A stretch of DNA of 64,000 nt, taken from assembly GCF_004684775.1 (NCBI RefSeq), contig NZ_SRIC01000004.1, positions 1 to 64,000 on the forward strand, in the 5' to 3' direction. The notes below the pieces were generated by a model. It worked only from the letters and a program-made list of their open reading frames with translations, was not told the DNA's origin and ran no database searches. The DNA comes from Streptomyces sp. MZ04. GTDB lineage: Bacteria; Actinomycetota; Actinomycetes; Streptomycetales; Streptomycetaceae. Positions 42,175 to 48,713 of the stretch are shown in pieces. Within the stretch, counting starts at the first letter, position 1, and every line of letters starts with the position of its first letter. Position numbers and translations under genes: made by a program.

Positions 42175-43311
42175 ATGACCGAGGCCACTTCCGGGACCGC
42201 GCCCTCGCGCCCCGCCGACCCCGCACCGCCCCCGGACGACTCGCTCCCCGGTGCGGAGCGGAAGGCGCGGCGGGCCGGCCGCGGCAGACTCCTGACCACG
42301 CTGACGGTGCTCTCCGTGACCCTGGTGGTGTCCGTACTCGCGGGCATCGCACTGGGTCCGACGGTCGTGGCACCCGGCGATGTCGCCCACTTCATCGGCG
42401 CCGCCATCACTGGGGGTTCCATCGGTGCGGACGAGGTCAGCGAGTACGCCATCGTCTGGCACGTCCGCACGCCCCGGGTGCTCCTCGCGGCCGTGGTCGG
42501 GGCCGGGCTCGCGGTCGTGGGCGTCGCGATCCAGGCGCTGGTGCGCAACGCCCTCGCGGACCCGTTCGTCCTCGGGATCTCCTCCGGCGCGTCGGTCGGT
42601 GCCACCGCCGTGGTGGTGTTCGGGGCCTTCGCGAGCTTGGGCGTCTACGCGCTGTCGGCCGCGGCATTCCTCGGGGCGCTCGCCGCGACCGTCCTCGTGT
42701 ACCTGGCCGCACGCGGACCGCTCGGCCTGACACCGTTGCGCCTCGTGCTCACCGGCGTGGCGCTGGCCTACGGATTCCAGGCCCTGATGAGCGTGCTGGT
42801 CTTCCTCTCCCCGAACGGCCAAGCCGCGCGCACCGTGCTGTTCTGGCTGCTCGGCAGCCTGGGCTCGGCGACCTGGGAGTCGCTGCCGCTCGCCGCCGGT
42901 GCGGTCCTGGTGACCGTCGTGGTGCTGCTGCGCCAGAGCAGGTCCCTGGACGTGCTCTCGCTGGGCGACGAGACCGCGGCCAGCCTCGGCGTGGACGCGG
43001 AAGCACTGCGCAGGAGGCTCTTCCTGCTCACCGCCGCGGTCACCGGTCTGATCGTCGCGGTCAGCGGCGCCATCGGTTTCGTCGGGCTCGTCCTGCCCCA
43101 TGTCGTACGCATCCTGGTCGGCTCGACGCACCGCCGTGTCCTCGCGGTCGCGCCGCTCGCCGGGGCCTGCTTCCTGGTCTGGGTCGACCTCGTCGCCCGC
43201 ACCGCGTTCGCCCCGGAGGAGCTGCCGCTCGGCGTGATCACCGCGCTGATCGGCGTACCCGTATTCATCGTGCTGATGCGCCGGCGCGGCTATCTGTTCG
43301 GAGGACGGTAG
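42175..43311 (+). CDS. FecCD-type ABC permease for metal-chelate uptake
   Basis: Inner-membrane permease of 378 aa with about ten hydrophobic segments, FecCD/BtuC family. Diagnostic stretches are WHVRTPRVLLAAVVGAGLAVVG, NALADPFVLGISSGASVGA, LGDETAASLGVDAEALRR and GFVGLVLPHVVRIL. It imports iron-siderophore, heme or cobalamin-type chelates. AAGGGA precedes the ATG. It is the first gene of a tightly coupled six-gene operon; its TAG is followed immediately by the ATPase ATG. Confidence 0.9.
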   Translation: MTEATSGTAPSRPADPAPPPDDSLPGAERKARRAGRGRLLTTLTVLSVTLVVSVLAGIALGPTVVAPGDVAHFIGAAITGGSIGADEVSEYAIVWHVRTPRVLLAAVVGAGLAVVGVAIQALVRNALADPFVLGISSGASVGATAVVVFGAFASLGVYALSAAAFLGALAATVLVYLAARGPLGLTPLRLVLTGVALAYGFQALMSVLVFLSPNGQAARTVLFWLLGSLGSATWESLPLAAGAVLVTVVVLLRQSRSLDVLSLGDETAASLGVDAEALRRRLFLLTAAVTGLIVAVSGAIGFVGLVLPHVVRILVGSTHRRVLAVAPLAGACFLVWVDLVARTAFAPEELPLGVITALIGVPVFIVLMRRRGYLFGGR

Positions 43312-44127
43312 ATGACCCTCGTCCTGCGCGACCTGACGGTCGAGGCGGCCGGCCGGGCCCTGGTCGACCGGCTCAACATCGAGGTGCCCGACGGCCGGAT
43401 CGTCGGGGTGGTCGGCCCGAACGGCAGCGGCAAGTCGACCGCGCTGCGGTGCGTCTACCGGGCGCTGCGACCGACCTCGGGGGCGGTCCTTCTCGACGGC
43501 GCCGAACTGGCATCCCTGAAGCTGCGCGACAGCGCACGGTCCATCGCCGCGCTCACCCAGGAGAGCCGCACCGAACTCGACTTCACGGTCGAGGAGGTCG
43601 TGGCGCTCGGCCGGGCCCCGCACACCCGCGGCAACCAGCCCCTCACCGCACACGAACGCGCCCTGTGCGCGCGGGCGATGGACCGGCTCGACGTCACCCA
43701 CCTCGCGGAACGCAGCGTGCTCACCCTCTCCGGAGGCGAGCGGCAGCGTGTCCTGGTGGCGCGCGCCCTCGTCCAGGAACCCCGCGTTCTGGTGCTCGAC
43801 GAGCCCACCAACCACCTCGACATCCGGCACCAGGTCCAGCTCCTCTCCTTCCTGCGCGGATCGGGACTGACCGTGCTCACGGCCCTGCACGACCTCAACC
43901 TGGCGGCCGCGGCCTGCGACAGCATCGCCGTCCTGAGCGAGGGCTCCCTGGTCACCTCGGGACGCCCCGCCGAGGTCCTGAACCCCGAGCTGATCCGCAA
44001 GGTGTTCGGCGTCGACGCCACCGTCGTGCACCACCCGCGCTCCCAAGCACCCCAACTGGTCTACGACCTCGCCCCCACCAGCTCCCCGGCACCCGCCGAC
44101 GCCCTACCAGAAGGACCGCACTCATGA
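43312..44127 (+). CDS. ABC ATP-binding protein, FecE/FepC type
   Basis: Cytoplasmic ATPase of 271 aa: Walker A GPNGSGKST, Q-loop ALTQESRTELDFTVEEVVALGR as in siderophore ATPases, signature LSGGERQRV, Walker B VLVLDEPTNHLD and H-loop LTALHDLNLAAA. It energises the adjacent FecCD permease. No gap separates it from the permease gene, and it overlaps the lipoprotein gene by ATGA. Confidence 0.93.
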   Translation: MTLVLRDLTVEAAGRALVDRLNIEVPDGRIVGVVGPNGSGKSTALRCVYRALRPTSGAVLLDGAELASLKLRDSARSIAALTQESRTELDFTVEEVVALGRAPHTRGNQPLTAHERALCARAMDRLDVTHLAERSVLTLSGGERQRVLVARALVQEPRVLVLDEPTNHLDIRHQVQLLSFLRGSGLTVLTALHDLNLAAAACDSIAVLSEGSLVTSGRPAEVLNPELIRKVFGVDATVVHHPRSQAPQLVYDLAPTSSPAPADALPEGPHS

Positions 44128-47481: not shown

Positions 47482-48713
47482 GGCGGCAGGGGAAGCCGCG
47501 CGGCCGGCTGCGGTCCGGTCTCGCGCGGCTCACCGCGCCGCAACAGTTCCTGCTGGCCGGATCGTTCCTGATTCCCCTGGGCAGCTTCGCCGTCCTGCCC
47601 TTCATGTCGGTGCTGCTGCACCGGCAACTGGGCATGGGGCTCGGCGCGGTGGGCATCGTCCTCGCCGTCGCCTCGCTGACGCAGTTCTCTGGCGGCGTGG
47701 CGGGCGCCGCCCTCGCCGAGCGGATCGGCCTGCGGCGCACGATGCTGCTGGCCCTGGGCATCCGCACGGCCGGGTTCGCCTGCTTCCTGCCCGGTCCGCA
47801 CCATCCGGCCGCCGCCGTCACCGCCCTCTTCCTCGTCTCCGTCGGCGCCGCGCTCTATCTCCCCGCGAACAAGGGGTACTTGATCCACCGGGCCGATGAG
47901 GAACAGCGCCCCCTGCTGCTGTCCGCGAGCAGCTCCGCGCTCAACGCGGGCATCGCCCTGGGGCCACTGGCAGCGGCGCCGTTCGTCCTCAGCGCATCGG
48001 CGGGGCTCTTCACCGCGGTCACCGTGCTGTTCGCGGCGATCACGGCGGGGCACGCGCTGCTGCCGGCGGAAGCGCCCGACCCCGGGGCGGCGGATCGGAC
48101 CATGGGGACCGGTCGGGAGAGGGCGTTCGCCGGGTTGGCGGGGCTGCCCTTCGCGGCCACCGTGCTGAGCCTGTACGTGTTCATGTTCTTCCAGCACTAC
48201 CTCGCGCTCTACGCGGTGCCCCGGACCTCGACGACGTACTACGGCCTGGTCCTCGCGCTCTACGCGCTCCTGCTCGTCGTCGCGCAACCCCTGCTCGCGG
48301 ACCGGATCGCGGGCCTGTCCTACGCCCGTGCCCTCTGGTTCGGCTTCGGCGCGATGACCTGCGGCATGGCCACGCTCGCCATCGGCGGCCATGTCGCGAT
48401 CCTGCTCGGGTCCCTGCTCATCTGCCTCGGCGAGATCGTCCTCTTCTTCAAGAACGACCTCGAGGCGCTGGCCCGTTCGCCGCGCGCGCCCGCCGTGGTC
48501 TTCGGCCGCCAGCGCCTGGCGGCCGGGATCGGCGCGTTCGCCAGCGGTGTCGCCGGAGGCGAGGGCTATCAACTGGCCGAACGCACCGGCCGACCCGGCC
48601 TGTTCTGGGTCGCGGTGGCGGCCCAGTGCGCACTGCTGCCGTTGCTCCTGGTCACGTTGGTGCGCCGTCGGCGTCAGCGGCGGCCATCGGCCGTCACAGC
48701 CCGAGATCGCTGA
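47478..48713 (+). CDS. MFS exporter of the metallophore-type operon
   Basis: Membrane protein of 411 aa with 12 segments. The N-terminal [39 protein letters not shown] and the MFS loop [20 protein letters not shown] are typical of efflux carriers. Position at the end of the operon, coupled by GTGA to the ligase gene, suggests that it secretes the small molecule. Its 3' end overlaps the convergent DUF1348 gene by 20 bp. Confidence 0.85.

Follow-up and report, generated by a model that had tools for sequence, protein, structure and literature searches.

What does a short, tightly packed operon of Streptomyces sp. MZ04 make, and for which metal? The operon occupies 42175..48713 of the window, by which we mean the whole 64,000-nucleotide stretch analysed (positions 1 to 64,000 of contig NZ_SRIC01000004.1, assembly GCF_004684775.1), and carries genes for an importer, two enzymes and a candidate exporter. 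A first-pass annotation had proposed that the two enzymes build a small metal chelator which is exported and recaptured, with no nonribosomal peptide synthetase (NRPS) in the pathway. Judged from its sequence, the operon very probably serves a metallophore of some kind, and we hold with moderate confidence that it is an NRPS-free metallophore operon whose metal is most likely copper. The original idea gains from a conserved make-export-import unit, the pairing of a pyridoxal phosphate (PLP) enzyme with an amino-acid ligase, the lack of a visible NRPS and metal-related switches across the family. It had missed a methyltransferase, the promoters, the likely metal and the sister clusters; the assignment to copper and the regulation are additions of the present analysis.

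A seven-gene unit and its relatives

All genes of the unit lie on the forward strand. The FecCD permease gene (42175..43311; PF01032, 294 bits) is followed by those for the importer ATPase (43312..44127; ABC_tran), the substrate-binding lipoprotein (44124..45134; Peripla_BP_2), a cysteine-synthase-like PLP enzyme of fold type II (45131..46258; PALP), an ATP-grasp enzyme with the L-amino-acid-ligase fold (46255..47481; LAL_C2 and ATP-grasp domains) and a major facilitator superfamily (MFS) protein, a candidate exporter by family (47478..48713; MFS_1); the last three begin with GTG. When re-measured, the junctions were 0, 4, 4, 4 and 4 nucleotides, as first reported. Two starts are possible for the PLP gene: GTG 45131 gives the 4-nucleotide overlap, and ATG 45140 leaves a 5-nucleotide gap. 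The unit is larger than six genes: a class I S-adenosylmethionine-dependent methyltransferase gene (41277..42020; Methyltransf_25), ending 154 nucleotides upstream of FecCD, belongs to it, and its relatives stand directly 5' of FecCD or of the PLP gene in related clusters. At the other end, a convergent DUF1348 gene extends 20 nucleotides into the end of the MFS gene; it is kept in the nearest relative and absent from the other relatives' gene rows shown.

The operon has importer and exporter genes of its own, assigned by family only. A Pfam scan found no NRPS domain in the operon proteins, and no NRPS is visible by size because the longest gene call in the whole window, outside the operon, is 1022 amino acids (Pfam scanning covered nine window proteins). 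Among the nine window proteins scanned there was no IucA/IucC-type NRPS-independent siderophore (NIS) synthetase, nicotianamine-synthase-like or opine dehydrogenase gene.

Using the PLP protein as query, we searched 249 genomes of the same family and obtained 35 full-length matches besides the protein itself at 56-78% identity, followed by a drop to 50% or less. We examined the gene neighbourhoods of 30 of the 35, along with those of 10 more distant matches and 5 plasmid matches; genes were labelled by phmmer against a small reference set, and the GHMP and DUF364 labels were Pfam-checked on representatives. Four arrangements, A to D, were seen repeatedly. Type A (8 loci) has the row methyltransferase-PLP-ATP-grasp, mostly with an MFS gene. 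Type B has GHMP kinase-PLP-ATP-grasp-methyltransferase, mostly with an MFS gene, and an importer operon. Types C/D (17 loci, one of them from the source genome itself) combine the PLP gene with one for a DUF364 protein, usually accompanied by methyltransferase, GHMP kinase, MFS and importer genes. The window cluster consists of the type A genes with the importer inserted between methyltransferase and PLP genes. We weighed a serine-kinase role for the AAA_33 kinase encoded divergently next to some type A clusters; only part of the Streptomyces loci have it, and it was not counted as a member.

We then scanned named genomes and kept the best 80 of 437 relatives; counts out of 77 below refer to these 80 less L154, L206 and L213. 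The conservation on which the first-pass annotation had staked its proposal was found: the order methyltransferase-FecCD-ATPase-binding protein-PLP-ATP-grasp recurs in 18 of the best 80 named loci, with the MFS gene next in 4 of the 18. These loci come from Streptomyces, Actinosynnema, Saccharopolyspora, Kibdelosporangium, Amycolatopsis, Actinokineospora and one record named Rhodococcus (R. rhodnii, L162; its gene row is like that of Kibdelosporangium L153, and the assembly name may be wrong). The nearest relative among the best 80, in S. longisporoflavus JCM 4396 (L135), is 87% identical, has the same neighbours and shows junctions of 0, -4, -4, -4 and -4. The junction between binding-protein and PLP genes is -4 in 17 of the 19 named loci where these genes are adjacent. 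Gene set, coupling and conservation are direct observations.

The same data speak to a role in primary metabolism or in the uptake of a vitamin-like cofactor, with the enzymes processing an imported compound. The importer subunits best match models of F420-0 and B12 transporters, at scores below cut-off. Against such a role stand the patchy distribution of the PLP enzyme (6 of 396 genomes of a phylum sample at E<=1e-40), the MFS gene coupled at the operon end and the two enzymes, for which no primary-metabolic model scored above cut-off. We regard it as very improbable.

The promoter motif and its probable sigma factor

A motif, GGGAACT...CGACTACTGGAG, was spotted by eye upstream of five type A clusters and, in the window, ahead of FecCD. 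An exact GGGAAC-N17-CGACTA precedes the methyltransferase gene in 6 of the 8 type A loci. In the window, a site of the form GGGAAC-N17-CGACCA (41165..41193, forward strand, one mismatch) stands 5' of the methyltransferase gene, and an exact GGGAAC-N17-CGACTA (42081..42109, forward strand) stands 5' of FecCD. We counted a locus as positive when a site with at most one mismatch lay on the right strand within 300 nucleotides upstream of a cluster gene. By this measure a GGGAAC-N17-CGACYA-type site was present in 64 of the 77 named loci, exact in 33 of them, and the reversed motif in 0 of 77; 60 shuffled hexamer pairs gave a mean of 0.13 loci and a maximum of 2. The spacing was sharp: N17 was found in 64 loci, N14 in 14, N16 in one, and all other spacings from 13 to 22 in none. 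Ten of the 11 genera have the site, including Amycolatopsis (10/10) and Saccharothrix (4/4). Genera other than Streptomyces, which took no part in spotting the motif, have it in 25 of 28 loci, and it is present in 17 of the 18 loci with the window gene order. None of 7 type B loci has it before cluster genes; at one mismatch it occurs in the hybrid locus L053 and in 1 of 17 DUF364 loci.

All 8 type A genomes have a gene for a SigC-like extracytoplasmic function (ECF) sigma factor no more than 3 kb from the PLP gene. This sigma gene is also present in 41 of the 77 named loci, and in 36 of the 58 loci longer than 18 kb. The promoter sites and the presence of sigma genes in many loci are likewise directly established. 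In the source genome the SigC-like gene is on contig C241, and its product shares 67% identity with the L045 protein. The usual neighbour of the sigma gene encodes a small His-rich protein that belongs to no Pfam family (24 of 77 named loci by one label); in the source genome this protein is rich in His and Met. The motif equals what we take to be the consensus of sigma-C of Corynebacterium glutamicum, GGGAAC-N16-17-CGACTA. We infer the identity of the sigma factor and its signal from these likenesses. In C. glutamicum the sigma-C regulon is switched on when copper is short (PMC7337898), and in Mycobacterium tuberculosis SigC prevents copper starvation and serves copper acquisition, raising expression of the chalkophore-type nrp operon (PMC7924339).

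Neighbouring genes give independent support for copper. The nine genomes compared have one or two genes each for the copper chaperone PCuAC, and two of the nine have a second SigC-like gene with a His-rich partner; in both, a PCuAC gene lies about 100 bases from it. Next to this second sigma gene is a heavy-metal P-type ATPase gene (L215 by Pfam, L216 by eye), with FecBCD genes also adjacent. In Streptomyces sp. NBC_00620 (L137), which holds a close relative of the window operon, the row runs from a sigma gene and a His-rich gene through all seven genes to PCuAC (63 bits) and a P-type ATPase.

Several results weigh against the assignment to SigC and copper. The cluster-adjacent sigma protein, whose best match among 85 NCBIfam models is SigC (NF007231), scored 179.5 bits, below the SigC cut-off of 219, and the match of the motif to sigma-C depends on the consensus taken here for sigma-C. 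In the source genome the sigma gene sits on another contig than the operon, and no site within one mismatch was found in the 9-kb contig C241 that holds it. Taken alone, the FecCD site in the window is weak and mildly unusual (one match against 0.05 expected; 5 of 100 shuffles gave one). Thirteen of the 77 named loci, and L039, have no promoter site, and the counts across loci are not independent because the loci are related. There is no genome-wide enrichment of the motif, since 41 sites at up to one mismatch were found against 96 for the reversed pattern. PCuAC lies beside the cluster in 0 of the nine genomes, and among the named loci a clear match is found only in L137; type A clusters have no adjacent FecBCD genes. 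A ferric-reductase-like gene in 27 of the 77 named loci could point to iron.

When we looked for other targets of the sigma factor, most of the sites were chance-like, and the second exact site in the source genome (C142) falls within a coding frame. Separately, in L102/L128 (G244), an exact site (L128, 6533) precedes genes for a His-rich membrane-like protein and a PepSY_TM protein, a possible further target.

Metal-linked switches in the sister clusters

The sister clusters carry switches of other kinds. Zur-box-like sites (up to three mismatches) were found in the promoter zones of 12 of the 17 type C/D loci, and 16 of the 17 have one outside coding frames anywhere in the locus; none of 18 ATP-grasp loci had one, and scrambled Zur palindromes matched in 3 of 720 trials. 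In type B together with the hybrid L053, Rfam detected cobalamin riboswitches in 8 of 8 loci (20 matches), directly before the biosynthetic operon in 6 of the 8 and only before importer genes in L053 and L055. L206 and L213 (S. buecherae AC541) also carry them. Cobalamin riboswitches were absent from L135, L137, L148, L189 and L208, from the 8 type A loci and L039 (the scan left out L051), and from the 9 scanned of the 17 type C/D loci.

On a tree of the PLP enzymes with 70 rows, 17 rows without a measured switch were set aside, leaving the states sigma (31), Zur (12) and B12 (10). These three states need two changes, the minimum possible, compared with a shuffled mean of 19.8. Branch support was 100 for the Zur group, 90 for the sigma group and a weak 55 for the B12 group, each taken as one side of a branch. 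That sister operons carry zinc or B12 switches while the window operon has the sigma signature suggests a single enzyme platform whose versions each serve a different scarce metal. We tentatively propose, at slightly short of an even chance, that an actinomycete PLP-enzyme platform belonging to none of the NRPS, NIS, opine and isonitrile classes radiated into metal-specific metallophores with one switch per clade: the DUF364 type for zinc (Zur), the GHMP-kinase/ATP-grasp type for cobalt (cobalamin riboswitch, dedicated cobaltophores) and the ATP-grasp type of the window for copper (SigC-like).

The window operon might instead serve another metal (iron, cobalt, nickel or zinc) or several, with the sigma factor answering a respiratory or envelope signal and not copper itself. 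The usual cargoes of FecBCD importers are iron chelates, cobalamin and haem, which would suit this explanation, as would the ferric-reductase-like genes. Cobalamin riboswitches occur in the nearest sister clade, and in L053 a riboswitch coexists with a sigma-type site at one mismatch. Our operator scans, which used only a few consensus sequences, gave no IdeR-type box within four mismatches in the scanned loci, window positions 40001-50500 included, and no Zur-type box within three mismatches in 40001-50500; Rfam found no riboswitch in the window. We accordingly rejected IdeR, Zur and B12 control for the window operon. Scanning for Nur-type boxes yielded no more than scattered matches in L055, L057 and L058. 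The PCuAC and P-type ATPase neighbours favour copper, and we consider service to another metal unlikely, though the most serious of the competing explanations.

Further loci deserve mention in their own right. The ATP-grasp sister clusters with cobalamin riboswitches (L040, L053-L059, L206 and L213) are candidate cobalt metallophore clusters, and L040 has a further riboswitch before metE. The hybrid L053 has two importers, one with the sigma-type site and one behind the cobalamin riboswitch, and a SigC-like gene. Near the riboswitch-type cluster of L057 lies a sodF small RNA (RF02790; 14833-14922). The source genome itself has a second cluster (L044, contig C616, 8247-14634) with PLP, DUF364, MFS, FecCD and ATPase genes and a divergent GHMP kinase gene; a Zur-box-like site with one mismatch makes it a candidate zincophore cluster. 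Elsewhere in the window, genes for a TetR regulator, a diiron-oxygenase-like protein (by eye) and a ferredoxin/FprA-like reductase lie at 49360-52756, in a row that L135 shares, and a Fur-family regulator gene adjoins a large catalase-peroxidase-like gene at 21947-25016 (by eye only).

Enzymes, proposed pathway and known systems

The folds of both enzymes are directly established. The PLP protein matched PALP with 100 bits, and its score with the CysK model was lower than with the SbnA model. It had been called SbnA-like. Fold and lysine agree with this: the protein has fold type II, and its Lys52 (numbered from ATG 45140), invariant in 27 of 27 alignment rows, aligns in a sequence-profile match to the PDB with Lys47 of SbnA, which we take to be the PLP-binding lysine. 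Membership of the SbnA family does not follow, at 129.9 bits with TIGR03945 against a curated cut-off of 349.95. By comparison with the CysK and SbnA motifs, the stretch preceding the lysine is shortened, SSGI stands at the 'TSGN' region and the usual Lys-loop residues are absent. The predicted structure (pLDDT 78; residues 217-241 unreliable) resembles those of CBS, CysK, O-ureidoserine synthase (3x43) and SbnA, and the capreomycin enzyme CmnB is among the PDB matches of the protein. The ATP-grasp protein scored 60.3 bits with LAL_C2 (cut-off 29.4) and has the L-amino acid ligase fold; its predicted structure (pLDDT 92.7) best matched 3vot, the L-amino acid ligase BL00235 (TM score 0.80), and resembled dipeptide ligases, BacD included.

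These resemblances bear on an alternative somewhat wider than the one named in the first-pass annotation (a dipeptide antibiotic with self-uptake): a dipeptide-like antibiotic or signal, as with bacilysin-type ligases, with the importer for self-uptake or Trojan-horse recycling. It draws on the likeness to BacD and on the use of the same PLP fold in antibiotic pathways (O-ureidoserine, 3x43; capreomycin, CmnB). Against it, the family as a whole carries switches linked to metals (Zur boxes, cobalamin riboswitches, SigC-type promoters), and importer genes recur in most sister clusters; we judge it improbable.

We infer the metal, the substrates, the product and the direction of transport of the favored copper metallophore as follows. 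Upon copper starvation, the SigC-like ECF sigma factor (C241) would transcribe the methyltransferase gene and the six coupled genes as two units, each from a GGGAAC-N17-CGACYA promoter, and the His/Met-rich protein beside the sigma gene may sense the metal. The PLP enzyme would replace the beta-leaving group of O-phospho- or O-acetylserine by the amine of an amino acid to give a diaminopropionate-type precursor, and the ATP-grasp enzyme would form an amide bond between this precursor and an amino acid. The methyltransferase may have a trimming role on the product. The chelator would leave the cell through the MFS protein, and the lipoprotein/FecCD/ATPase importer would recapture the metal complex. 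GHMP kinases of the sister types suit the making of O-phosphoserine; the window type, with no adjacent GHMP kinase gene, may use the cell's own O-phosphoserine pool or the kinase of the C616 cluster. As a bold guess, the amide nitrogen added by the ligase could be a good donor for copper and cobalt, and the zinc type would manage without it.

If this scheme holds, chelators of copper, cobalt and zinc would be made by two or three soluble enzymes with no megasynthases, and nature would offer a set of near-identical pathways for comparing the choice of metal between clades. It would also predict an inducing medium (poor in copper, in zinc or in cobalt/B12) for silent clusters of named culturable Streptomyces and Amycolatopsis strains. 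We found no published description of these clusters in a search whose reach excluded most subscription journals. The operon falls outside the gene classes targeted by NRPS-based metallophore mining as set out in PMC12971057.

Some known systems share one enzyme family or more with the window operon. On a plasmid of Mesorhizobium sp. AR02 (L043, 7004-11713) a GHMP kinase, a PLP enzyme and an ATP-grasp-argininosuccinate-lyase fusion are encoded in a row, and other rhizobial plasmids carry similar PLP matches. Such sets have the two enzyme families side by side as in the window; they differ in the fused lyase (PRK02186, 1243 bits), in the kinase and in having no importer in the stretch shown, and their PLP enzyme is about 33% identical. 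L080-L083 encode PLP proteins, GHMP proteins (two loci) and, as separate proteins, relatives of the two halves of the ATP-grasp-lyase fusion; in L080 and L081 the cluster adjoins a gene for a protein of about 2000 amino acids. The bacilysin and BL00235 L-amino acid ligases share the ATP-grasp fold and the LAL_C2 domain with the window enzyme, at about 20% identity in the structural alignment, but its partners are different (PLP enzyme, FecBCD importer). In staphyloferrin B biosynthesis (SbnA/SbnB) the same PLP fold is used, and SbnA is among the best PDB matches by profile and by fold; the window cluster genes include no SbnB-like gene or NIS synthetase, and an ATP-grasp ligase is in their place.

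Two further systems invite comparison in regulation or in proposed function. The zincophore [S,S]-ethylenediaminedisuccinate ([S,S]-EDDS) of Amycolatopsis japonicum, an aminopolycarboxylate made by the aes genes, is NRPS-free, amino-acid-derived and Zur-controlled (PMC6103462). In these respects it resembles our sister clusters with Zur boxes; the window type differs in its ATP-grasp ligase and in lacking a Zur box. The chalkophores, which include the isonitrile lipopeptides and SF2768 of actinobacteria as well as the methanobactins, have the same job that we propose here, that of a secreted copper chelator recaptured by an importer. The window operon, whose copper binding is putative, shows no NRPS or isonitrile genes and uses a PLP enzyme and an ATP-grasp ligase instead. 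The upregulation of the chalkophore-type nrp operon of Mycobacterium by SigC (PMC7924339) is like the regulation proposed for the window operon.

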